A DNA stretch of 10,288 bases, taken from assembly GCA_002780065.1 (NCBI GenBank), contig PEWQ01000127.1:1-10288 (forward strand), written 5' to 3'. This DNA comes from Candidatus Hydrogenedentes bacterium CG07_land_8_20_14_0_80_42_17. Lineage in GTDB: Bacteria; UBA8481. This document shows positions 18-10,288 of the stretch, piece by piece; the stretch's first letter is position 1, and every line of letters begins with the position of its first letter. Made by a program: the position numbers and the translations under genes. Under the pieces are notes generated by a model. The model was not told the DNA's origin, did not search any database, and was given only the letters and a program-made list of their open reading frames with translations.

Positions 18-1019
18 TTACAGATAATATTTAGCCGTGCTGTTTCTTATGACTAATTCAGGTTCCAATAATATTTGCTTTGATACGTTAATGTCTTTAT
101 TCAATAAAGCCGTAAAGATTTCAAAAGCAAGTTTTCCCATTTTATGCAAAGGCTGTCGAACAGTAGTCAAAGAGGGTACAAGAGCTTCTGCAAGCAAAGT
201 ATCGTCAAAACCTACAACGGATATTTTATCCGGTATCTTTAATCCTAATTCATAAATAGCTTTGTAAGCTCCTGCTGAAATCCAATCTGAAGCAAGAACA
301 AATGCTGTTGGAGCATTTTTTTGTTTCAAAAGTTTTTTTACAATTTCGTATGTCTTTTCTTTGCTCATTTTAGAATCAAGAATCCACGACTGCTCTAATT
401 TACATTCTTTGAAACCTGCGGCAAATCCGTCAAGCCTCATCTCGCCGACGCCCTTCTTTTCGCCGATTCCGGCAATGCGTTTGTGCCCTAATGAATAAAG
501 GTATCTAGCGGCTTTCAGCGCACCGTTTATATTGTCCACAATTATCCATGGCAAAGCGTTGTCGGCTCGATTTATAGCTACGGCAATATGCCCTTCCTTT
601 ATGAGATCCTTAACTGCAGGCGAATCGAGCGCGGCGTCAAGAATCAGAGAACCGTCAACAAGTTCAGAATGATATTGAAGTAATTTCTTGTCATCAATTA
701 CGGAACCGAGCATAGAGAGATGCACTGTCCAGCCTGCTTTGCCGGCCGCTTCTGTCACTCCTGAAATAATTTCAGAAAGAAATAAATCTTTGTATGCGCG
801 TTCTCCACTAGGAACAATAAGTCCTACAGAATGTCTGCTCTTCCTTGCAAGCGATGTTGCAAGGAAACTCGGTTTAAATGCAAGTTTTTTAATACTTTTT
901 TCCAACCTACTGCATGTCGCAGGAGCAATTACGTTTAACCGTTTCAAATATCTTGAAACAGTAGCTATAGATACTCCAGCATCTTTTGCAACGTCGTATA
1001 TTGTAGCTCTTTTTTTCAT
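18..1019 (-). CDS. LacI/GalR-family transcriptional regulator
   Basis: A sugar-responsive DNA-binding regulator, 333 residues, the usual family length. The N-terminal helix-turn-helix is typical: TIYDVAKDAGVS at 6-17 then IATVSRYL as recognition helix (18-25). The hinge helix includes ATSLARK at 54-60, followed by the canonical link to the sensor domain, VGLIVP at 65-70. The sensor resembles ribose-binding-type periplasmic proteins: YLYSLGHKRIAGIGE at 173-187, SVVGFDD at 267-273, LTTVRQP at 284-290 and PELVIRNST at 320-328. The ATG at 1017-1019 shares one base with the upstream TAA (TAATG). An AGAGGA at 1031-1036 lies 11 bases upstream, somewhat far. Its place at the 3' end of an alpha-glucan enzyme operon suggests that it senses a released sugar, perhaps a maltooligosaccharide, and controls this operon, but neither ligand nor operator is visible. 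Members can repress or activate; repression is the default guess. Confidence 0.95.
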   Translation of the reverse strand: MKKRATIYDVAKDAGVSIATVSRYLKRLNVIAPATCSRLEKSIKKLAFKPSFLATSLARKSRHSVGLIVPSGERAYKDLFLSEIISGVTEAAGKAGWTVHLSMLGSVIDDKKLLQYHSELVDGSLILDAALDSPAVKDLIKEGHIAVAINRADNALPWIIVDNINGALKAARYLYSLGHKRIAGIGEKKGVGEMRLDGFAAGFKECKLEQSWILDSKMSKEKTYEIVKKLLKQKNAPTAFVLASDWISAGAYKAIYELGLKIPDKISVVGFDDTLLAEALVPSLTTVRQPLHKMGKLAFEIFTALLNKDINVSKQILLEPELVIRNSTAKYYL

Positions 1020-2014
1020 TATTCCATTTTTCCTCTAGGTAAATAAATTCTCACAACCCTTACCGGAATTTTTTCACACCACGGTGGATCATCAGGTTTT
1101 GAAAACCATACAATGTTCTCATGCTTTTCAATTATTTTCCAGTCTGCTTCTTTGACAAGAAAGAAAGTGCCTATTGCTCCTCGAGCTCTCGCATTCATCA
1201 CTGTTGAAGTGTCGCCGATAATTCTTGAAAATGTATCAGTAGAATCAGTACCCATGTATGCGTCTACAGCCCGAATACAATAGTAATACGTATCGCCAAA
1301 AATAAGATTAGTATCAAGATAAGTGTTGTATGAACCTTCTACAGTATTTATTTTTGTGAAAGGTCCCGTCTCATTCGTCCCGCGATAGATTTCATAATAA
1401 CCTCCGGCAAGCACATCAGCCGCTTTGAATGCCTCGCCGCTCTGCCCCCACGAGCCGTAAACGCCAGCCCATAAAAGTCTTATTATTGTCTCGCCTTCGG
1501 CCGCGGCTGTGAAGTTAGCAACAACGCCGGGAGTCTCTCCAAAATTATTGAAGACCCATATTGTGTCTCCTGGAATTTTCGATGACGCAATATTAAGAAC
1601 ACGCCGGGCATCGTAATTTACTGAAGAATAATATGCAGTAGTGTCCGGTTCATTCCACGAATATCCGTTGGAAGAACATTTGATCACGCCATTTGCAGGC
1701 ATGATGTCGTAATAATCATTCCACGCTTGTAATCCTCCTGGAGCAGGACAGCCGGCATTTGCGAAAAAAATGTAATTATAAGTTTGCCCCGCAGATAAGC
1801 CTACAATATATTCGTAAGTCCCATCGCCGACTGCAGTCATTGTTGACTCGCCATTTGTCACCAGCGAACGATAAGCATCCTTCCATACTGAAACGCTTGT
1901 GCCTGGATTGATTGCAATGGTTTTTGAAACCTGCCCCCAAGTATCCGAAGCTGTAGCCGCTCGAACATTTGTAGAAAAGGTAATCAATAAAAACAATGCA
2001 AATATTTTTCTCAT
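1019..2014 (-). CDS. Small exported protein with starch-binding-like and FnIII domains
   Basis: No catalytic signature is recognised; the likely role is exported carbohydrate binding or assisting the giant enzyme. The start ATG at 2012-2014 overlaps the upstream TGA. It is preceded by AAAGGG at 8 bases and followed at once by a signal peptide (MRK, hydrophobic core FALFLLITF, then NVRA-A, cleavage near residue 19 or 20). Residues about 25-122 form a Tyr/Trp-rich sandwich resembling small CBM20/X25-type domains (TYEY at 67-70 and TYNYIFF at 78-84, like the strand that carries EYKF in such domains). Residues about 164-268 are FnIII, with YYEIYR at 206-211 and DTYYYCIRAVD at 241-251. The last 60 residues contain PDDPPW and end RGKME; I do not recognise them. 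Cysteines at 89, 113, 246 and 313 could form disulfides after export. The module order copies the C-terminal part of the upstream giant protein. The gene call is firm; the binding role is inference. Confidence 0.88.
   Translation of the reverse strand: MRKIFALFLLITFSTNVRAATASDTWGQVSKTIAINPGTSVSVWKDAYRSLVTNGESTMTAVGDGTYEYIVGLSAGQTYNYIFFANAGCPAPGGLQAWNDYYDIMPANGVIKCSSNGYSWNEPDTTAYYSSVNYDARRVLNIASSKIPGDTIWVFNNFGETPGVVANFTAAAEGETIIRLLWAGVYGSWGQSGEAFKAADVLAGGYYEIYRGTNETGPFTKINTVEGSYNTYLDTNLIFGDTYYYCIRAVDAYMGTDSTDTFSRIIGDTSTVMNARARGAIGTFFLVKEADWKIIEKHENIVWFSKPDDPPWCEKIPVRVVRIYLPRGKME
1031..1036 (-). promoter_or_regulatory. Ribosome binding site (AGAGGA) for the LacI-family gene
   Basis: On the minus strand AGAGGA lies 11 bases before the ATG at 1017-1019, inside the codons for the last residues of the upstream protein. 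The spacing is a little long, which fits re-initiation at the TAATG junction. Confidence 0.55.
1955..2014 (-). other. Sec signal peptide of the small exported protein
   Basis: Residues 1-20: basic MRK, an uninterrupted hydrophobic core, then a V-R-A-A cleavage region (small residues at -3 and -1). There is no cysteine at +1, so it is not a lipoprotein signal. This supports export of the protein to the periplasm or beyond. Confidence 0.85.
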
Positions 2015-5000
2015 TGCTCTCGCCCTTTTGCAATATCAGAGCGTATTTTGTCTATTGCATCAACTCTGAATCTGATCCAGACCGGCAGTTGCGGCGTCAC
2101 AGATACCATTCGAGACGCAGAGCTTTGGAGTTGAATCGCTCCTCCGTCAACCGAATAGATATAATAATAATAAGTATCACCATTGTTCAGTCCTGTGTCG
2201 GTATAAGCAGTATTCGATAGTATGCTCGAAGTAATTGTCACAAAATTTGTATCGGCTGAAGAAGCTCGTTTAACTGTGTATCCAATAACATCTACGCTGG
2301 AGTCTGAAGTCCACGACAAATATGCCGTCTGATTTCCTGAATATCCCTGAGGATTTGTCACGCCGGCCGGAGCATTGTTCCAATCCTGATTTAATGTTAC
2401 TGAATCAACCTCCGGCGGAGTGTATTCACGCAATGTCGATGAAGTGGCAAATGCATTTTCAGTGGCAGAACCGTTGTTGTAAGAATAACGGTATGTTAGA
2501 GCAACTCCTCCAAATACTGCGATAGTTTTGCTCCAGACAGTGCTTGCAGTATGCGTTAGCGCAACTCTGGTAGGAGACGGCCCCATGCTGTAAGCGCTCC
2601 CTGATATTTCCATGGAAGACGGATTGACGTTGGCAAGATCGATAGAAAAAGTTACAGCTACAATGTAGGCTGATTGGGTATCTGACGGTGTAGAAATATT
2701 TCTGACTTGATCTTGTGCACATATTTTATAGTAATACTTAATTCCATTCGTCACTGTTGAGTCGGTATAATAAGGCGATAAAGTTGGAGAGACCAGAAAT
2801 GCATTTACCCGATTCTCTAAAGTCATAGGCACTGAAGGGTCTTGAGAACGATAGATGATGTAGCCTGCCAGATCACCATCAGAATTTGGATTCCAAGTCA
2901 GCTTTATAGTGGAAGTGTCTACAGGATACAACGTGAGCCCCGTCGGTTTGGAAGGAGATGTCACATCATTCGATGTCAGTAGTGCTGAAGTTGTTGCCGA
3001 CCAGTTGCCGCCGTTATTCCACCAATCTACAGCCTTGACTTGATAATAATAAGTTGTTGCCGGAACTGCGCCTGTGTCTGTAAACAAATTTTGAGTCTTT
3101 GATGCATCTCCGATTTCAGTCCAATTAGATTGATCGGTCGATCTTCGAATTATGTAACGTATGACATCCGGCTCAATATTTGGAGTCCATCCGATTTTAA
3201 TTGAAGTGTCGCCGCCAGTCGCAACAGCATTTATCGGTTTGCGCGGAGCAACATCGCCATCTATATTCCAACGATGTGTAAATATTGTTGTGCCGTCTCC
3301 GGTATGATCGACAATCTTTACAAGACGAGGATTGTCGGTTGAGTAAAATATATTTGAAAAAACATTATTATATTCCCAATTGTCATCTCCGTTATTTACA
3401 ACATATTTGAATTCGGGCATTGATGTCGGATCCATCTCGCACTCGTAATACCACATCGTTGTATCTATGCGCGTCATTGAAATTGGAGCCCAATTTCCTA
3501 GATTCGATGTTGAGTTGCCGGCAATTTTAACTGATTGAACAGAATTAATATCGTCCCATACTCCCTCAAGATCAAAATAGAATTTGACTCGATATTTCTT
3601 CGGTACCACCATTGCTTCATTTGAATAGCCTGATAAGTTTCCGTTTCTGTCAACAGCTCGCACTCGATAGTAATACGTATCGTCGTTAGTTAGGAAATTG
3701 TCGAGATTGTTGTCGTAATACCATGATTGCATAACCTCTATGATCATTTGAGATGAAGGATCGTTGTGGATTTGTGAACGGTATATTTTGTATGTAATAA
3801 CGTTTTGAGGATCTTCATTAGAATAATCAGTCACTCCGCTCCAGCGCAAAAATGCGGCGCGATCCCGAACTACAGCGGCAAGGCCTGTTGGAGCTGGAGG
3901 CGGATTGTTGTCTGTAGTGGATAGAGTTTGAGTTTCTTCAAGCTGAGCTAAATTGCCGTCGCCAGAAGTAAGAGAAATTGTTTTTGAATGAACTGTATAT
4001 CCCTGTTTCCAAACATAAAGAGTTCTATCATAGTTTGGACCTCCCCCGCCCCAGCCTACTACATCTTCAATACTGCAATAACCGGTCGCATCTGTCTTTC
4101 GAGTCCACGCAGAATAATTATCTATCGAAACAATTGCGTCAGCTTGGCCTACATAGACGTGAACTGTTCTTCGTCCGTAGCCGCCTTTTACAAGCAACGA
4201 TCCGTCGCGAGCGTTCGTTGTCCAATTTACTTTTCCGCCGGCATCTGTGATAATTCCCCATTCTGGATGAAGCCAATCTAAGTATTCGATTCCGGCGGCT
4301 TCGCCGGTAGATATGTCCGCATTGATATTTGACTCGTAATTATTCAATATCGGAATGAATTTGTGTAGATCTCCATTGCCGTCTCCGCGTCTGTAAACAA
4401 GAATATAATTATCCGGTGTCGATAGATTCCTGTAAGCTTTCGAAGCCCGAATTTCGCTAAATATATTTCTTGCCCGAAACCATTTTTGAATTGACGGTCT
4501 TAACCACGAACTCGATGCATCATCGAAAACCATCTTGCGAGTATTTCCGAAACGCTCTGTAGATTGTACGTATTCGCCAGGGTATGGATACGTCCATGAG
4601 TGCCAACCTGATAATGGAATTTCGTCTCCGTAGAAGAGTACAGGATTTTGAGAATGAACTGATGCAAATGCAAATATTGCCCGAAGCATATCAACATACG
4701 CAGATTGTTTACTTCCATCATTATCTTGTCCGCCGCCAAGTTGATTGTATGCTCTCGAATGATCATGGTTTTCGACTAACGTTGCCATTACAGCTTCACT
4801 GCCATAGTCGTTCTCGTATCCCTGAAAATTTCCACTGAAAGTAGCGGCAGTTTGATTTGCCGATCCCCAACCGAATAATAAGTCCGACCGTATCGGAAAG
4901 TCGAGCTGTCCTTGCATTCGATTGTTGTCTTTCGTGTACATTCCAATATCAGCCGAACTTCCCGGCATCTCTCCGAATACGTATATCTCAGGAAATACCT

Positions 5001-8000
5001 CATCCCATTTTACGCGCATATACCTGTAGAACGGAAGACCTCGAGTAGGCTCGTCCCCGGGATCATAGAATTTGGTGTTGTCAGCTCGAAGTCCATAAAC
5101 TCCAAATGATGACATAAAGAGTGAATGGTCTGCCATGAACTGCCGTGCCTCAACAGAGCTCTCTAGAACTCTTTCTCCTCCAAATCTTTTTCCTAAAAAC
5201 ATATCCGGATGGTTGGTATAAGTTCGACCTGAATAAATTTGTCCCGGCACCCAGTCAACTATCAATCGCATGTTGTGATACCGGCAAGTCTTCGCAAGAT
5301 TCAATAAATCGTCGAATCCGTTATATTGTGACGAAGGATTTGTATAAGACCATTGAACTCGATAAAAATCGCTTTGATTGTAGCCCCAGCATCCACCGCC
5401 AAAGTCTAAAACAGGTGATGTGTAAAGTCCCGTAATTCCGAGTTCATTGAAATAAGTAATTGAATCTTGAAGACCTTTTAAGTCTCCGCCAGACATGTAA
5501 GGATCGCCAGGAACATTATCGCTTCTTCCTGAAACAAATCGATCAACAAAAACATTGTACATAATGTAATCACGATTCGAACTGAACGGCGCGCCATTTT
5601 GATTCGGCAGTTGCGGAGCCGGCGAAACTTCTGTATCGAGTTGGCAATTAGTTGCTCTGCCTTCGTTATCAATATCAACAGTCAAATACGCGTTTATGAC
5701 TTGATCAGATGAACTAACTTCGTCAGTCCATGTTGTCACTTGATTAGAAAGAGCATCTACAGTATTCGAATTTCCTGCTCCGTTCTGTCCGACCGAACCT
5801 GATGAATTCACAAAAGTCGCGACCGTAAATTTTAGACGTTGACCAAGAACTTTTGCAGATCCTCCGAAAAGTTCGAGCGGTGCGCAAAGCTCTACATACT
5901 TACTTGAAGAGTTCTCAGTATACCAGCCGGGCTGACCTGCATAAGCAGTATTCAATATGTAGCAATCATCGTTTCCTGTTCGCCATCTTACAAGTTTCTC
6001 CCACGCGGCATCGAGCGCGGTGAAGCTGTCTTCCGAATATGTTCCTGTTCCTTGAAATGCTCTAATGTCGGAAGACGCGTCAAAAGAAACTGCAATCTGG
6101 CCGATGCATTCTCCGCTCGAAAGTGCCGCAGTCGGAATTAAAAAGTAAAGATTGTATTTGTCGGCAGTGACATGAAACTGCAAAAGATCTCGCGAAGTTG
6201 AATTAGCAACATCGGTTCGCTGGTCACCCTGTGAATCGACCCAAATAGCTTCGCTTAATGTTGTGTCTAGATTTGCAGTTCTCAAACCATATCCGCCAGA
6301 CGATGCCCAATCGCTTGAATCTCCGTTCACCTGTCGTCTGCTTACATAAATGCCGTCAGATGCCGGAGATGTCCCGATGTAACCGCCCGTGTCGACAGCT
6401 TTTATTCGAGCATAATAAGTGTAGCCTCGCAAAGCGCTTGTGTAAGTGTACTTGCGAGTTGAACTCGAACGCGTATCGACTTTCAAAGGTGAAGTGAATG
6501 ATGTCGATGTATCGATCTCGATTATGTAGCTGTCGATCGGCGAACTTTCAGAATGCACTGCCGCAACCCAGTTCCACACTATTGTTGTTCCGGCTACCTC
6601 ATTCCCGTTCATCTGACGCATATTGCTTATGTTCTCTAAATCTGTCGGAGCCGAGACGAGAATGGTTTTTGATTCAGCAAGGAAGAATGACTGCGGCACT
6701 GAATATCCAACATGTCCGGCTCTGTCAATGGGTTTGGCTCGCCACGTGTAATAAGCGCTGTCGTTTAAAAGCCCCGGCAATAAGAAACTATTGCCGATGA
6801 CTGTCTGCCGATATGTTACTGCTCCATCAAGCGATGTTCCTGAATCTGCTAATTCGAAGATATATGCAACTACTGTGTCGTTCGCGTCTGTGTCGCTGGG
6901 AATTTCCCATGTAAATGTTGGAGGATTGACAAGTGAAGTATCACCATTTCCCGGTATTTGAGCTGGTGTTGGAGCTGGTGTGGAATTAAGTTCGAGTGAA
7001 GTATCGGTCAATGCTAATTGCACCCAGAAATCAATATCGCCATCTGATAGGTCTTCTTGCAAAGAAGTTCCGTACCACGAAGAATCATTGAAATTTGCTT
7101 TAGCCATTGTGACTGCGTCGAACGCATCGCATGGCGAATAGTTGCCGGTAGTGTTTGTTGTTGATGCCTGCCCCGGAACATTTTGAAATATCGCAGTTGC
7201 AATTCTGAAATTACAAGTGCCTTTCAACTGCAAATCTTGTCTTGCGATTCTAGCTTCGATTATTCCGGCAGAAGCTTTTACTGACATTGAAACTCCGGAC
7301 GGCGGAACGATCCAGTTGTTGCCGCCTGCTCCGCCGGTGTCAAGCTCCGCTGTCATTGCTCCGCCGGTGCTCGTTGAATGGAATATGATCTGTCGTTCGT
7401 GCTTTAATGGCGGAGTAGATATTTCTGAATCCAAAAATGTTGTTGTCTGGTCGCCAATCTCATTTCCTCCGCTTGAATCCAAAGTAGTATCGATAGCTAC
7501 GGCAATATTTATTGACCATTCAGTAAATGAACCAAGAGCAAAGTAGAAATATATGTAATCAGTGTCTGCTTGAACTCTTGCCTCTTTGAGGTCTAGGTTT
7601 GATGGGACAACCTCTCCAAATTTGTCCTTCCATATCCACTCCGTTATTCCATTCGTTGTGACGACATGAGCACGGTTCACCAAACTCGGAGCGGAACCCG
7701 GCCATGTCGCTAACGTTGAAACAGCGGCGACCGGTCCGGTTGTTGCGCTTGATGTCTCGATACCGTCTCCTGCTGAAACGTATACTTGCCATGTCTCGCC
7801 TTGAGTTGTCGATTCAGGCGGAACGGAAGATGTGTAAGGCGCAGTTGAATCATACGCAACAAATTGACTTACAGCGTTCTTCTTCCATTCAAAGCGATAC
7901 GTCAAAATATCGGTAGCATCGGAATCGAGCGCTCCGGAAGCGGTGGCAGTGATCGTATCGTTATCGTTTGGTGAATTTGAAGATAAAGTTATTGTGGTCG

Positions 8001-10288
8001 GAGAAGTTGGAGCAGAATTACTTATTTGAAAATAGAAAGCGTTCGTTTGAGCAGAAGCCTCTGAAGATGTTGCTGTAGAATAAGTGTCGGAACCATAAAG
8101 ATATGTCGTCATCTGATCAGAGTTAAATTTGAAGTAGTAGAATACTTGAGAATCCTTTGGAAGATTCGGAAGATCGCATGACCAATAAGAATATCCTCCG
8201 CTCTGAAATTCTTCCGTCACTGTCACACTTGACCACGAAGCTTTAGCGTTATTCGAATAATATAAAGTTGCAGAAGATGCGACTCCTACAGGAGTCACTC
8301 CAGCCATAAGATGAACTTTGTTAACGTATTTCGGTTGAGATGGAGAACGCATCTTGCCGTATCCAGTGACTGGAGTGCTTTCCGGCAGGTGATACGCGGA
8401 AATTACTCCTTGCTTGATCAGATACACAATTACCCGGGTATCTCTGAATTGAAGCGGATAAGCAACATCGGCATAAGGATAAGTTGCATCGGTATCGAAT
8501 GGAGTGCAATCATCTATTCCGTTCTTGTATCCATTATGTCTGCCATAATGAATTAGCGCTATGGTGTCTCCAGCCTGCATTCCTGAACGGATACTCGATA
8601 GAGGTATTCGAACTTCGCCCCAACCCGAACCATAGTCGTTCAAATATGCGGAATAATCCTTGTCTGTAAGATCAGTTCCTATATCCCATGAAGCTCCATC
8701 TGAAACATAACGATTGCCGCCGGCAAAATTGGTGTTGCCATAAGTCGCAAACAAATTAGTCCATACATTACAACCATAACCGTCAACTCTGGTTGCAGAC
8801 ATTGAGTTCTTCCACGGATCCCATGGCGAGCCCCACGAAGACGTATCAGTAATTACGAATCCGTAATGCGCAGACTGTTCTGATTCGTTAGGCTCATCAA
8901 GAGCGAAAGGATCTCCAAACGCCTGCCAGCCTATGTAGAGCCACTGCGCGTCGTTGGTCACGTAAACGTCGCGGCAGATTCCGCCTATTGGAACAACGGC
9001 AACTTGAGAATCACTGCCTTCGCCCGGAGCAGGATGCTCGTCGTATTGCGGAGAAGAATCGGAAGGAGTTGAACCCCAATCGAAATCTTTTACTCCATCA
9101 ATATTGGGACTGAAAGAAATTGGAGAAGGAGATGGATTTCTCCACGTTCGTTTAGATTTGTAATACTGTTTGCTGTTAGGAGCTACGCCAAGCAGTTTTG
9201 GAAATTCAAGATACGTTGCAAAATCTTTTCCAGCCGCACCATATTCATTAGTCGTAGGGCAACTCGACCACATGTAGTTGGAATTATTTTTATTTACAAC
9301 AGAAATCATTACTTTGAATTTCGATGGATTTCCTATGATCGACCAAGGAAAAGAAAATTCCAGTTGATAGTCTGTAGTGTTTTTATATTCCGAACCTCCG
9401 GTTGAAGCAACATAGTTCCATGCTCCTCCATTACTCCATTGATAATGTAAACCTCCGGATAAATATTGGTGCTCATAGTAAACGCATGTATCTGCATTGA
9501 ACGGTAAAGTATGAGTGCCTCCGCCGTTGAAGTTAACCGTTGTGTTGTTTCCTACTCCGAGATCTTCGTTATCAATATAAACCTGAATTAAATCCGAATC
9601 CTCAAATGCATTATTTCGTTTCCAAGCGCAATAAACATAATTCGAGTCCCATGTGATATACCAGCCGTAAGCATTTAATGCAGGAAAAAATTCGTTGCTG
9701 TTCCAATCTGAAAGGTCTCCGTCAACCGCAATAATTGCATTTATCTTAAAACTGAAGACAGAAGAATATGGGCTGACTTGACCTTCAGAATCTTTTGCTC
9801 TGACTCTCCAGTAATACCACTGATACGGATTCAAAGTTGTTGTGCAATTGTGCGTGACCGAACCGTTCGCCTGCCAGCCAACATCCGATGAAAAACTCGT
9901 AGTATCGCTCATTCCAACGTCAGTAGCTATTTCAAACCAATATGAGACAATCGTATCTCCATCCGCAAGATCTGAATCTCCGGCTTCTGACCACGTTATT
10001 GAAGGTCTTCGAGATTCTACAGTCGTTTGACCGTCGGTTGGATTTATTGCGGAAAGAGGTGCAACCGGCGTTATGGATCTAATTCTATAGACGAACGGCG
10101 ATGTTTGAGCAGTTCCTTCTCCAATCGTTGTTTGGCTGTCGTATGCATCAGCAACGCCTGTTCCATAAATGAAAGTAGTTTCTTTCTCTGTTTGAACCAA
10201 TCGAAAATAATATGAGACCGTATCGAGATAATCCCATTCAGTTGTATCTTCTTGATTCAGGATAAAACGATAATATGTCTTTGAGTCT
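2011..10288 (-). CDS. Giant exported multidomain GH13 alpha-glucan-active enzyme (5' end missing)
   Basis: Likely an extracellular or surface enzyme acting on starch, glycogen or related alpha-glucans. The frame is open for 29 codons beyond the TTG at 10198-10200, right to the window edge, so the true start and any signal peptide lie outside. Modules in order (TTG as residue 1): X-domain half to about 43, FnIII 48-154, CBM9-like 157-335 and 362-590, X domain 620-728, Ig-like 730-828, CBM9-like 831-1070, FnIII 1075-1176 and 1180-1287, CBM9-like 1288-1512, GH13 barrel 1540-1922, domain C 1925-2017, regulatory-like sandwich 2019-2080, FnIII 2100-2200, CBM20 2203-2310, FnIII 2317-2409 and 2413-2513, CBM20-like 2514-2607, FnIII 2609-2704. 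Catalytic residues by motif are D1707, E1744 and D1813. The C-terminus (ending AKGREQ) shows no LPXTG, membrane anchor or recognisable type IX signal, so attachment is unknown. The stop overlaps the next start by 4 bases. The GH13 assignment is firm. Exact specificity (amylase, pullulanase-like or transferase) is not decidable here. Confidence 0.93.
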   Translation of the reverse strand, partial: DSKTYYRFILNQEDTTEWDYLDTVSYYFRLVQTEKETTFIYGTGVADAYDSQTTIGEGTAQTSPFVYRIRSITPVAPLSAINPTDGQTTVESRRPSITWSEAGDSDLADGDTIVSYWFEIATDVGMSDTTSFSSDVGWQANGSVTHNCTTTLNPYQWYYWRVRAKDSEGQVSPYSSVFSFKINAIIAVDGDLSDWNSNEFFPALNAYGWYITWDSNYVYCAWKRNNAFEDSDLIQVYIDNEDLGVGNNTTVNFNGGGTHTLPFNADTCVYYEHQYLSGGLHYQWSNGGAWNYVASTGGSEYKNTTDYQLEFSFPWSIIGNPSKFKVMISVVNKNNSNYMWSSCPTTNEYGAAGKDFATYLEFPKLLGVAPNSKQYYKSKRTWRNPSPSPISFSPNIDGVKDFDWGSTPSDSSPQYDEHPAPGEGSDSQVAVVPIGGICRDVYVTNDAQWLYIGWQAFGDPFALDEPNESEQSAHYGFVITDTSSWGSPWDPWKNSMSATRVDGYGCNVWTNLFATYGNTNFAGGNRYVSDGASWDIGTDLTDKDYSAYLNDYGSGWGEVRIPLSSIRSGMQAGDTIALIHYGRHNGYKNGIDDCTPFDTDATYPYADVAYPLQFRDTRVIVYLIKQGVISAYHLPESTPVTGYGKMRSPSQPKYVNKVHLMAGVTPVGVASSATLYYSNNAKASWSSVTVTEEFQSGGYSYWSCDLPNLPKDSQVFYYFKFNSDQMTTYLYGSDTYSTATSSEASAQTNAFYFQISNSAPTSPTTITLSSNSPNDNDTITATASGALDSDATDILTYRFEWKKNAVSQFVAYDSTAPYTSSVPPESTTQGETWQVYVSAGDGIETSSATTGPVAAVSTLATWPGSAPSLVNRAHVVTTNGITEWIWKDKFGEVVPSNLDLKEARVQADTDYIYFYFALGSFTEWSINIAVAIDTTLDSSGGNEIGDQTTTFLDSEISTPPLKHERQIIFHSTSTGGAMTAELDTGGAGGNNWIVPPSGVSMSVKASAGIIEARIARQDLQLKGTCNFRIATAIFQNVPGQASTTNTTGNYSPCDAFDAVTMAKANFNDSSWYGTSLQEDLSDGDIDFWVQLALTDTSLELNSTPAPTPAQIPGNGDTSLVNPPTFTWEIPSDTDANDTVVAYIFELADSGTSLDGAVTYRQTVIGNSFLLPGLLNDSAYYTWRAKPIDRAGHVGYSVPQSFFLAESKTILVSAPTDLENISNMRQMNGNEVAGTTIVWNWVAAVHSESSPIDSYIIEIDTSTSFTSPLKVDTRSSSTRKYTYTSALRGYTYYARIKAVDTGGYIGTSPASDGIYVSRRQVNGDSSDWASSGGYGLRTANLDTTLSEAIWVDSQGDQRTDVANSTSRDLLQFHVTADKYNLYFLIPTAALSSGECIGQIAVSFDASSDIRAFQGTGTYSEDSFTALDAAWEKLVRWRTGNDDCYILNTAYAGQPGWYTENSSSKYVELCAPLELFGGSAKVLGQRLKFTVATFVNSSGSVGQNGAGNSNTVDALSNQVTTWTDEVSSSDQVINAYLTVDIDNEGRATNCQLDTEVSPAPQLPNQNGAPFSSNRDYIMYNVFVDRFVSGRSDNVPGDPYMSGGDLKGLQDSITYFNELGITGLYTSPVLDFGGGCWGYNQSDFYRVQWSYTNPSSQYNGFDDLLNLAKTCRYHNMRLIVDWVPGQIYSGRTYTNHPDMFLGKRFGGERVLESSVEARQFMADHSLFMSSFGVYGLRADNTKFYDPGDEPTRGLPFYRYMRVKWDEVFPEIYVFGEMPGSSADIGMYTKDNNRMQGQLDFPIRSDLLFGWGSANQTAATFSGNFQGYENDYGSEAVMATLVENHDHSRAYNQLGGGQDNDGSKQSAYVDMLRAIFAFASVHSQNPVLFYGDEIPLSGWHSWTYPYPGEYVQSTERFGNTRKMVFDDASSSWLRPSIQKWFRARNIFSEIRASKAYRNLSTPDNYILVYRRGDGNGDLHKFIPILNNYESNINADISTGEAAGIEYLDWLHPEWGIITDAGGKVNWTTNARDGSLLVKGGYGRRTVHVYVGQADAIVSIDNYSAWTRKTDATGYCSIEDVVGWGGGGPNYDRTLYVWKQGYTVHSKTISLTSGDGNLAQLEETQTLSTTDNNPPPAPTGLAAVVRDRAAFLRWSGVTDYSNEDPQNVITYKIYRSQIHNDPSSQMIIEVMQSWYYDNNLDNFLTNDDTYYYRVRAVDRNGNLSGYSNEAMVVPKKYRVKFYFDLEGVWDDINSVQSVKIAGNSTSNLGNWAPISMTRIDTTMWYYECEMDPTSMPEFKYVVNNGDDNWEYNNVFSNIFYSTDNPRLVKIVDHTGDGTTIFTHRWNIDGDVAPRKPINAVATGGDTSIKIGWTPNIEPDVIRYIIRRSTDQSNWTEIGDASKTQNLFTDTGAVPATTYYYQVKAVDWWNNGGNWSATTSALLTSNDVTSPSKPTGLTLYPVDTSTIKLTWNPNSDGDLAGYIIYRSQDPSVPMTLENRVNAFLVSPTLSPYYTDSTVTNGIKYYYKICAQDQVRNISTPSDTQSAYIVAVTFSIDLANVNPSSMEISGSAYSMGPSPTRVALTHTASTVWSKTIAVFGGVALTYRYSYNNGSATENAFATSSTLREYTPPEVDSVTLNQDWNNAPAGVTNPQGYSGNQTAYLSWTSDSSVDVIGYTVKRASSADTNFVTITSSILSNTAYTDTGLNNGDTYYYYIYSVDGGAIQLQSSASRMVSVTPQLPVWIRFRVDAIDKIRSDIAKGREQ
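2023..2028 (-). promoter_or_regulatory. Ribosome binding site (AAAGGG) for the small exported protein
   Basis: On the minus strand AAAGGG ends 8 bases before the ATG at 2012-2014. It lies inside the last codons of the giant gene, so ribosomes ending on the giant gene could restart at the overlapping ATGA. It supports this start choice. Confidence 0.6.
2089..2376 (-). other. FnIII domain 8
   Basis: Residues 2609-2704. AYLSWTSDSSVDVIGYTVKR, then AYTDTGLNNGDTYYYYIYSV, then RMVSVTPQLP. It is the last folded module. A charged tail of about 25 residues follows, with no recognised anchor or secretion signal. Confidence 0.82.
2380..2661 (-). other. Degenerate CBM20-like domain
   Basis: Residues about 2514-2607 open with VAVTFSIDLANV and contain MEISGSAYSMG, then VWSKTIAVFG, LTYRYSYNNGSATENAF and finally VTLNQDWNN. 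The strand order and the tail pattern (Y-x-Y-x-Y-N-N-G-S-x-x-E-N) follow CBM20/X25-type sandwiches. The LGNW tryptophan is missing and WE is replaced by TE, so site 1 binding is probably weakened or lost. It could instead be a purely structural copy. Confidence 0.55.
2662..3252 (-). other. Two tandem FnIII domains (6 and 7)
   Basis: Residues 2317-2409 (APRKPINAVATGGDTSIKIG, VIRYIIRRSTD, TTYYYQVKAVDWWNNGG) and 2413-2513 (SPSKPTGLTL, IKLTWNPNSDGDLAGYIIYR, IKYYYKICAQDQVRNIS). They lie between the CBM20 and the degenerate CBM20-like domain. Confidence 0.85.
3271..3594 (-). other. CBM20-type starch-binding domain
   Basis: Residues about 2203-2310. The order matches CBM20: VKFYFDL, then VKIAGNS, LGNW at 2234-2237, a central Trp at 2250, EFKYVVNN at 2263-2270, and NWEYNN at 2274-2279. 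In known CBM20 domains the Trp of LG(D/N)W and the Trp of the later WE motif form starch-binding site 1. Both are kept here (W2237, bases 3490-3492; W2275, bases 3376-3378). This supports raw starch or glycogen as the substrate. Confidence 0.82.
3601..3903 (-). other. FnIII domain 5
   Basis: Residues 2100-2200. PPPAPTGLAAVVRD opening, LRWSGVTD, ITYKIYRSQ, and DTYYYRVRAVDRNGNLSGYS. This is a textbook bacterial FnIII pattern and links the catalytic part to the CBM20 domain. Confidence 0.85.
3961..4146 (-). other. Carboxypeptidase-regulatory-like small sandwich
   Basis: Residues about 2019-2080 contain IVSIDNY, then RKTDATGYCSIEDV, then LYVWKQGYTVHSKTI. This is the usual run of these small Ig-like sandwiches (x-V-x-I, T-D-x-x-G-x-Y, K-x-G-Y). 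It probably acts as a structural spacer between the catalytic unit and the C-terminal binding modules. Confidence 0.6.
4150..4428 (-). other. GH13 domain C beta-sandwich
   Basis: Residues about 1925-2017 directly follow the barrel. They begin with NYILVYRRGD and include KFIPILNNYES, matching the strand pattern at the start of GH13 domain C, where the chain switches from barrel to Greek-key sandwich. The segment ends near RRTVHVYVGQ. The assignment is by position and strand pattern, not by a specific binding motif. Confidence 0.6.
4435..5583 (-). other. GH13 catalytic (beta/alpha)8 barrel of the giant protein
   Basis: Residues about 1540-1922. The family signatures run in normal, unpermuted order: GGDLKG at 1571-1576, YTSPV at 1593-1597, WGYNQSDFY at 1605-1613, region I VDWVPGQ at 1648-1654, region II GLRADNTK at 1703-1710 (nucleophile D1707, bases 5080-5082), region III VFGE at 1741-1744 (acid/base E1744, bases 4969-4971), region IV ENHD at 1810-1813 (transition-state D1813, bases 4762-4764) and PVLFYGDE at 1853-1860. 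All three catalytic acids and the region II arginine are present, so the enzyme should be active. Region I lacks the usual Asn-His (Gly-Gln instead). The subfamily and the linkage cut cannot be assigned from motifs alone. Confidence 0.93.
5665..6339 (-). other. CBM9/glucodextranase-C-like domain D
   Basis: Residues about 1288-1512, directly before the GH13 barrel. The domain opens with VNGDSSDWAS (1291-1300), then EAIWVDSQGDQRTD (1317-1330), LLQFHVTADKYNLYFLI (1339-1355) and IGQIAVSFDASSD (1366-1378). It combines a D-x-S-D-W opening with the amylase-associated W-x-D-x-x-G-D motif seen in domain C. Its position suggests that it packs on the catalytic barrel or presents substrate to it. Confidence 0.65.
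6340..6978 (-). other. Two tandem FnIII-like domains (3 and 4)
   Basis: Residues 1075-1176 (TPAQIPGNGDTSL, PPTFTWEIPSD, YYTWRAKPIDRAGHVGYS) and 1180-1287 (IVWNWVAAV, IDSYIIEIDTS, TYYARIKAVDTGGYIGTSP). A short Pro/Thr-rich linker (STPAPTPAQ) precedes the first. They separate CBM9-like domains C and D. Confidence 0.75.
6991..7710 (-). other. CBM9/glucodextranase-C-like domain C
   Basis: Residues about 831-1070. EWIWKDKFGE (854-863), then LKEARVQADTDYIYFYFAL (871-889), then INIAVAIDTTLDSSGG (897-912). This pattern, W-x-D-x-x-G-x followed by hydrophobic-x-A-D-x-x-x-(I/L)-Y-F, occurs in sandwich modules attached to exported amylases and pullulanases. It is clearly related to domain D of the same protein. 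Confidence 0.6.
7717..8013 (-). other. Ig/FnIII-like domain 2
   Basis: Residues 730-828. SAPTSPTTITLSSNSPNDND at 729-748, then LTYRFEWKKN and TWQVYVSAGDG. It resembles bacterial Ig-like (PKD or cadherin-like) spacers that follow an S-A-P-T-x-P linker. Function is structural. Confidence 0.6.
8017..8343 (-). repeat. Domain X copy 2
   Basis: Residues about 620-728. It contains VHLMAGVTPVGVASSATLYY, a WSCDLPNLPKDSQVFYYFKF run, then TTYLYGSD and AQTNAFYFQISN. It is a paralogue of the half domain at the window edge. Each copy is followed by an FnIII/Ig-like domain and then a CBM9-like domain, so the duplicated unit seems larger than one domain. Confidence 0.6.
8431..9117 (-). other. CBM9-like domain B
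   Basis: Residues about 362-590. NIDGVKDFDW is a variant of the D-G-x-x-D-W opening. It is followed by RDVYVTNDAQWLYIGW (410-425), the strand typical of CBM9/DOMON-like folds, and by WGEVRIPLSSIRSG (527-540) near the end. It is longer than domain A, with an insertion containing several Trp and Gly (454-506). The assignment is weaker than for A. Confidence 0.55.
9196..9732 (-). other. CBM9-like domain A
   Basis: Residues about 157-335. It starts with VDGDLSDWNS (159-168), the typical opening of CBM9-like sandwiches, then ITWDSNYVYCAWKR (182-195), DLIQVYIDNED (203-213) and YQLEFSFPWSIIG (278-290), the usual strand and amphipathic pattern. It probably binds or packs against carbohydrate, but no ligand-specific residues can be read off. 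Confidence 0.7.
9739..10059 (-). other. FnIII-like domain 1
   Basis: Residues 48-154. RRPSITWSEAGD, then VSYWFEIATD, then WYYWRVRAKDSEGQVSPYS. The W-x-x-x-x-D and Y-Y-W-R-V-R-A-K-D-x-x-G strands are typical of bacterial FnIII spacers. Confidence 0.75.
10072..10288 (-). repeat. Domain X copy 1 (C-terminal half, cut by window edge)
   Basis: The first visible residues include VSYYFRLVQTEKETTFIYGT and end with AQTSPFVYRIRS. They match, strand for strand, a second copy at 8017-8343 (FYYFKFNSDQMTTYLYGS and AQTNAFYFQISN). This is an Ig-like sandwich ending in aromatic strands, reminiscent of small N-terminal sandwiches of GH13 enzymes. The relation between the two copies is seen directly; the family name is uncertain. 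Confidence 0.6.

Follow-up and report, generated by a model that had tools for sequence, protein, structure and literature searches.

A separate GH13 branch with a GH70-like glutamine in region I, encoded in giant proteins of Candidatus Hydrogenedentes and other rarely sampled bacteria

The region-I histidine has been described as one of the best conserved positions in all of GH13 (PMC11239784). Of seven conserved active-site residues, it is reportedly the only one that differs between GH13 and GH70, the latter having Gln in its place (PMC4919382). In the GH70 enzyme GTF180, subsite −1 comprises Arg1023, Asp1025, Glu1063, His1135, Asp1136, Tyr1465, and Gln1509 (PMC4919382). GH70 has been proposed to have arisen from GH13_5, and in GtfC a domain IV of 110 residues is inserted in domain B (PMC9732880). 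A further mark of GH70 is motif III, with Trp, Gly, or Tyr two positions past the Glu (PMC11299179). Asn-His at the end of region I is typical of most GH13 subfamilies without defining the family, as the genome studied here illustrates with a GlgE and a GlgB that lack one or both residues. In glycogen branching enzymes (GlgB) the normal region I is DWVP[GAS]H, likewise without the Asn, a point missed in an earlier note on this DNA.

The stretch analyzed here (the window) is a whole contig of 10,288 nucleotides (PEWQ01000127.1; C120 of genome G000) from Candidatus Hydrogenedentes bacterium CG07_land_8_20_14_0_80_42_17, whose genome sequence of 2.39 Mb is 87% complete. It encodes a GH13 domain with region I VDWVPGQIY. 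In our reading, to which we give a probability of about 0.8, this motif marks an apparently undescribed GH13 branch of extracellular enzymes that most likely cleave α-glucans, with a Gln independent of that of GH70.

Organization of the contig and fold of the catalytic domain

The window contains a giant open frame, a partner gene, and a regulator gene on the same strand (Table 1). The giant frame is collinear, with 50% identity, with residues 742 to 3490 of a 3,499-aa frame from genome G001, whose sequence matches record RFFU01000040, labelled Candidatus Hydrogenedentota bacterium J006. Because the alignment begins at residue 742, approximately 740 N-terminal residues of the window protein are probably missing. 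Residues are numbered from a TTG codon that is no real start, as the frame extends without interruption to the contig edge. Besides the α-amylase catalytic domain, Pfam identifies one Ig-like and three fn3 domains in the protein. PF00128 matches the catalytic domain with 82 bits (E = 6e-23; cut-off, 22) and is the sole significant catalytic family. The CBM20 module was detected on searching the segment at 3256 to 3600 alone, and the G001 homologue has the same module (E = 2e-8). A second segment, at 2341 to 2670 on the minus strand, resembles CBM20 by eye; a Pfam search of it returned no match.

Table 1. Features of the window and copies of the partner gene in other loci
Feature	Coordinates	Strand	Remarks
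LacI-family regulator	18..1019	-	Adjoins two-gene unit; PF00356, PF13377
Partner gene, ~330 aa	1019..2014	-	Signal-peptide-like N terminus by eye; fn3-like segment
Giant-protein open frame	2011..10287	-	2758 aa; 5' end cut off at contig edge (full protein >2758 aa)
CBM20 starch-binding module	3256..3600	-	C-terminal of catalytic domain; PF00686, 26.6 bits (cut-off 23.3)
GH13 catalytic domain (domains A, short B, C)	4090..5604	-	505 aa; PF00128, AlphaFold model, nearest structures
Region IV, LVENHDHS	4756..4779	-	His 4765-4767; Asp 4762-4764, predicted transition-state stabilizer
Region III, FGEMP	4963..4977	-	Glu 4969-4971, predicted acid/base; Pro two residues on, invariant in branch
Region II, GLRADNTKF	5068..5094	-	Asp 5080-5082, predicted nucleophile; DNxKF invariant in branch
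Region I, VDWVPGQIY	5233..5259	-	Gln 5239-5241 at His position; Gly 5242-5244 at Asn position
Partner copy	L015:11405-12565		
Partner copy	L071:2594-3673		
Partner copy	L073:5404-6600		
Partner copy	L074:14277-15341		
Partner copy	L076:5791-6888		
Partner copy	L091:3087-4118		

A profile search of solved structures retrieved GH13 α-amylases, cyclomaltodextrinase, neopullulanase, and maltogenic amylase first, with E values down to 1e-39. The AlphaFold model of the domain has a pLDDT of 86.8 with an alignment of 26 sequences (54.8 with six sequences) and a pTM of 0.90. It presents an unpermuted barrel, its strands running from β1 to β8 in sequence, together with domain C and a short domain B. 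Domain IV is missing: regions I and II are only approximately 50 residues apart, and the model shows this interval as a loop, a short helix, and a hairpin.

The nearest structures among the matches listed are of the TVAII, GTA, and neopullulanase/maltogenic-amylase types, with Z scores of 36 to 39 (38.8 for the GH13_20 type) at 18 to 23% identity. These structures (1g1y, 1j0h, 1sma, 4e2o, and 5a2a, comprising GH13_20-type neopullulanase, maltogenic amylase, and TVAII, and GTA/ASKA-type α-amylases) share with the window domain the fold, the order of the conserved regions, the VDRF...GGD start, and the NHD of region IV. The window domain is 19 to 21% identical to them and differs in its shorter domain B, a region I without Asn-His, the DNxKF of region II, and the Pro after the acid/base. 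No GH70 chain is among the matches listed by Foldseek or VIA-align, which carries no weight alone.

Region I and the predicted active site

The earlier note placed the region-I motif at 5236 to 5259; the motif is real, and that span holds eight of its nine residues, leaving out the Tyr codon. The Gln is residue 1654 and, as the note described, region I lacks both Asn and His, with Gly-Gln in their places, while the other motifs follow in unpermuted GH13 order (GLRADNTKF, FGEMPG, and VENHDHS for regions II, III, and IV). A six-frame translation of the window contains DWVPxQ a single time. The codon pattern for DWVPxQ-x-Y was matched in 3 of 386 diverse genomes, all with branch members, and a reversed control pattern in none. 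The Gln is kept in seven of eight full-length branch domains, and it is thus neither a sequence error nor a chance occurrence.

The description of this motif as GH70-like holds in part. The Gln at the His position and the following I-Y do resemble GH70, but DWVPG is equally the motif of GlgB branching enzymes: region I reads DWVPGH in E. coli GlgB, one substitution away from the window over D-W-V-P-G-x, and DWVPAH (DWVPAHF) in the GlgB of the same genome (L007). Since DWVP[GAS]H is standard in GlgB, the GH70-like element is confined to the Gln and the I-Y. Next to this Gln, the window has a Gly where most GH13 enzymes have Asn and the GH70 references Asp. The Asn at this place is a calcium ligand in many members of the GH13 family. 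Because Gly replaces Asn/Asp, the calcium site has probably been lost in the window enzyme.

The remainder of the predicted active site is intact. All seven residues of GTF180 subsite −1 have counterparts in the window, namely Arg1705, Asp1707, Glu1744, His1812, Asp1813, Tyr1607, and Gln1654. The catalytic Asp (β4), Glu (β5), and Asp (β7), whose strands were located in the model, are invariant in all eight full domains, as is the NHD of region IV throughout the branch. Even homologues with as little as 28% identity retain the triad and the subsite −1 Arg and His; in one member Phe replaces the Tyr. The His of region II is absent from the branch (KH to KF). This loss and the invariant Pro that follows the acid/base are both unusual, and they could signify altered or weak activity. 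It is even conceivable that the domain is a noncatalytic α-glucan-binding relic in a surface scaffold protein, since regions I and II have lost Asn-His and His, respectively, and the protein is large with an adhesion-like fn3/Ig architecture. The persistence of the triad, Arg, and His in such distant homologues makes this improbable.

The DNxKF motif that is invariant in the branch recalls RVDNPHTKP of GlgE (GH13_3) encoded in the same genome (L010). This GlgE is also like the window in a region I without Asn-His (DFALNC), but it lacks the NHD of region IV. These similarities hinted at kinship with GlgE; in the tree GlgE lies away from the branch, on a very long branch of its own and with unsure placement.

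Relation of the branch to GH70 and to other GH13 enzymes

The domain was detected in G001, G270, G312, G030, and G072 by profile searches of the 386 diverse genomes; searches by phylum yielded two more copies, in G386 and G389, and a fragment in G390. The branch thus defined consists of eight full domains and fragments from four separate small phyla, all in frames of approximately 1,300 to 5,500 aa, some of them cut at contig ends. Region I is DWVPGQIY in the window, G270, and G386, DWVPGQVY in G001, DWIAGQIY in G312, DWVCGQVG in G072, and DWVPGQVG in G389. The one full domain with His is that of G030 (L020/L073), which reads DWITPHSG. A plasmid search yielded only distant GH13 sequences (23 to 26% identity), a scan of contigs with two poorly conserved stretches retrieved only the G001 record, and neither the branch nor the motif turned up in a literature search.

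Two trees were built without the region-I columns, the second also without long-branch rows, from about 40 references with partial coverage of the CAZy GH13 subfamilies. The branch has support of 100/99 in the two trees and falls within none of the known subfamilies available for comparison. GH70, represented by permuted sequences only, joins the GH13_5 α-amylases with support of 94/89 in the first tree and 100/99 in the second, in agreement with the published proposals of a GH13_5 origin (PMC9732880). The GH13_5 rows form a supported group of their own with GH70 beside it, and the branch is not in GH13_5. The branch is most likely a deep, apparently undescribed lineage at subfamily level, found within very large extracellular proteins from bacteria that are seldom sampled. 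"New subfamily" here means outside every group compared, with identity of at most 23% to solved structures among the matches listed. Because the references are partial and do not include GtfC/GtfD, an existing unsampled subfamily could contain the branch; characterized GH13_20 sequences are likewise absent from the trees, and GH13_20 is among the nearest structures at 20% identity.

The earlier note suggested a position near the transition from GH13 to GH70, in which case the domain would be an intermediate or a sister of GH70 and DWVPxQ-I-Y would have been inherited. The window does resemble GH70 glucansucrases and 4,6-α-glucanotransferases in the identical residues D-W-V-P-x-Q-I-Y, in addition to the seven residues of subsite −1. 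The GH70 profile PF02324 also matches the same stretch weakly in three of six members (best E value, 0.0019). In the window domain this match reaches 12.5 bits, below the cut-off of 24, and dozens of other GH13 sequences match equally well or better, several of which, when checked, were GlgB enzymes with DWVP[GAS]H. The profile match was therefore rejected as evidence for GH70, being unspecific. With region I left out, trees in which GH70 and the branch were forced together were rejected by AU tests (P = 0.0009 for the first tree and 0.0004 for the second). The window domain also lacks the circular permutation of glucansucrases and the GtfB type, its regions following the order I-II-III-IV, as well as the domain IV, the Asp of region I, and the motif III feature of GH70, which is replaced by the invariant Pro; moreover, one branch member has His. 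Under the models used, the trees and AU tests reject an intermediate, and common descent with GH70 is highly improbable.

Convergence, which the earlier note had allowed for, fits these results better. An ordinary-length GH13 protein of 703 aa found elsewhere in the trees (L045; G321:C56) also has Gln for His in region I (DMVCNQ), but it belongs to a separate lineage, keeps the Asn, and has DAVKH in region II. The same exchange in this unrelated protein indicates that Gln arose at this position more than once, and DWITPH in G030 together with DMVCNQ in L045 shows that the position changes within GH13, in G030 to His inside the branch itself. The best reading of these sequences is that the His-to-Gln change in the branch would be convergent with GH70, with an independent origin within GH13.

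Descent of the branch from glycogen branching enzymes (GH13_9) would account for the shared DWVPG, which E. coli GlgB has and its counterpart in the same genome approaches with DWVPA, and the two groups are neighbors in the second tree. The support for this grouping is weak (75/29), and it is missing from the larger tree. GlgB keeps the His and has SHDEV in region IV and AEES in region III, where the branch has NHD and GE-x-P; the domain start (VDRF...GGD) and regions III and IV of the branch are of the neopullulanase/α-amylase type, and the nearest structures among the matches listed are not GlgB. Such an origin is accordingly very doubtful.

Predicted reaction and the conserved partner gene

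Acting at the cell surface or beyond it, the enzyme would cleave α-glucans of the starch, glycogen, or pullulan type and bind the polymer through its CBM20 module. The usual retaining two-step mechanism is expected, with Asp1707 as nucleophile, Glu1744 as acid/base, and Asp1813 as transition-state stabilizer. Arg1705, His1812, and Tyr1607 would complete subsite −1, where Gln1654 probably forms a hydrogen bond with the sugar, as a counterpart of GH70 Gln1509. Use of α-glucans outside the cell is indicated by the CBM20 module, the adjacent GH13 genes, and the LacI regulators. By reading, a GH13 gene lies beside the unit in G001 (L015:2-1039), and a LacI regulator similar to that of the window lies upstream of it in G072, where a GH13 gene with a glycogen-binding CBM48-type module is also adjacent (L074:2372-4840). 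The window N terminus is missing, and the giants of G030 and G072 begin with hydrophobic stretches that by eye resemble signal peptides; secretion of the window protein is thus presumed.

Hydrolysis is taken as the default main reaction because of the nearest structures. The enzyme could instead be mainly a transglycosylase (α-glucanotransferase), with the His-to-Gln exchange as part of a convergent shift to transfer, as might be supposed from a set of seven subsite −1 residues that is complete and the same as in GH70, and from the likely binding of polymers by CBM20. However, no acceptor-site feature of GH70 or GlgB is conserved, with Pro in motif III and a region IV that continues as NHDHxR, and L045 shows the exchange in another GH13 background. 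Furthermore, transfer activity is not set by region I alone. A predominantly transferring enzyme is therefore possible but unlikely.

The partner gene follows the giant gene in all branch loci with sequence at that place, and its copies (Table 1) are 31 to 52% identical to that of the window. No Pfam family scored above cut-off in the partner protein. Among the 386 genomes, a partner profile gave matches along most of its length in seven, namely the six enzyme genomes and G213; other matches were mainly confined to the fn3-like segment. By reading, the G213 contig begins partway through the catalytic domain of the giant, in its C-terminal portion. This genome therefore also has the enzyme, and enzyme and partner occur together in all seven of the sampled genomes that have either. 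The presence of the six enzyme genomes among the seven partner genomes has a hypergeometric probability of 1.6e-12, in which related genomes are not independent. In G072 (L074) and G213 (L091), partner-like segments are repeated at the C terminus of the giant protein, and because of these segments the partner may be derived from that end of the giant.

A more far-reaching proposal, which we regard as quite unlikely, is that the branch, a deep GH13 lineage, re-created the subsite −1 of GH70 on its own and that, in several candidate phyla, its enzymes act outside the cell as α-glucan-remodelling transglycosylases together with a secreted protein dedicated to them. Under the preferred reading of an α-glucan-cleaving branch, a GH13 lineage with its own His-to-Gln exchange and one member with His offers a natural test of the role of this residue, apart from permutation and domain IV. 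Such a lineage also makes DWVPxQ unreliable for recognizing GH70 enzymes, and the conserved pairing of giant and partner genes suggests that little-known phyla have an α-glucan system outside the cell that has yet to be described.
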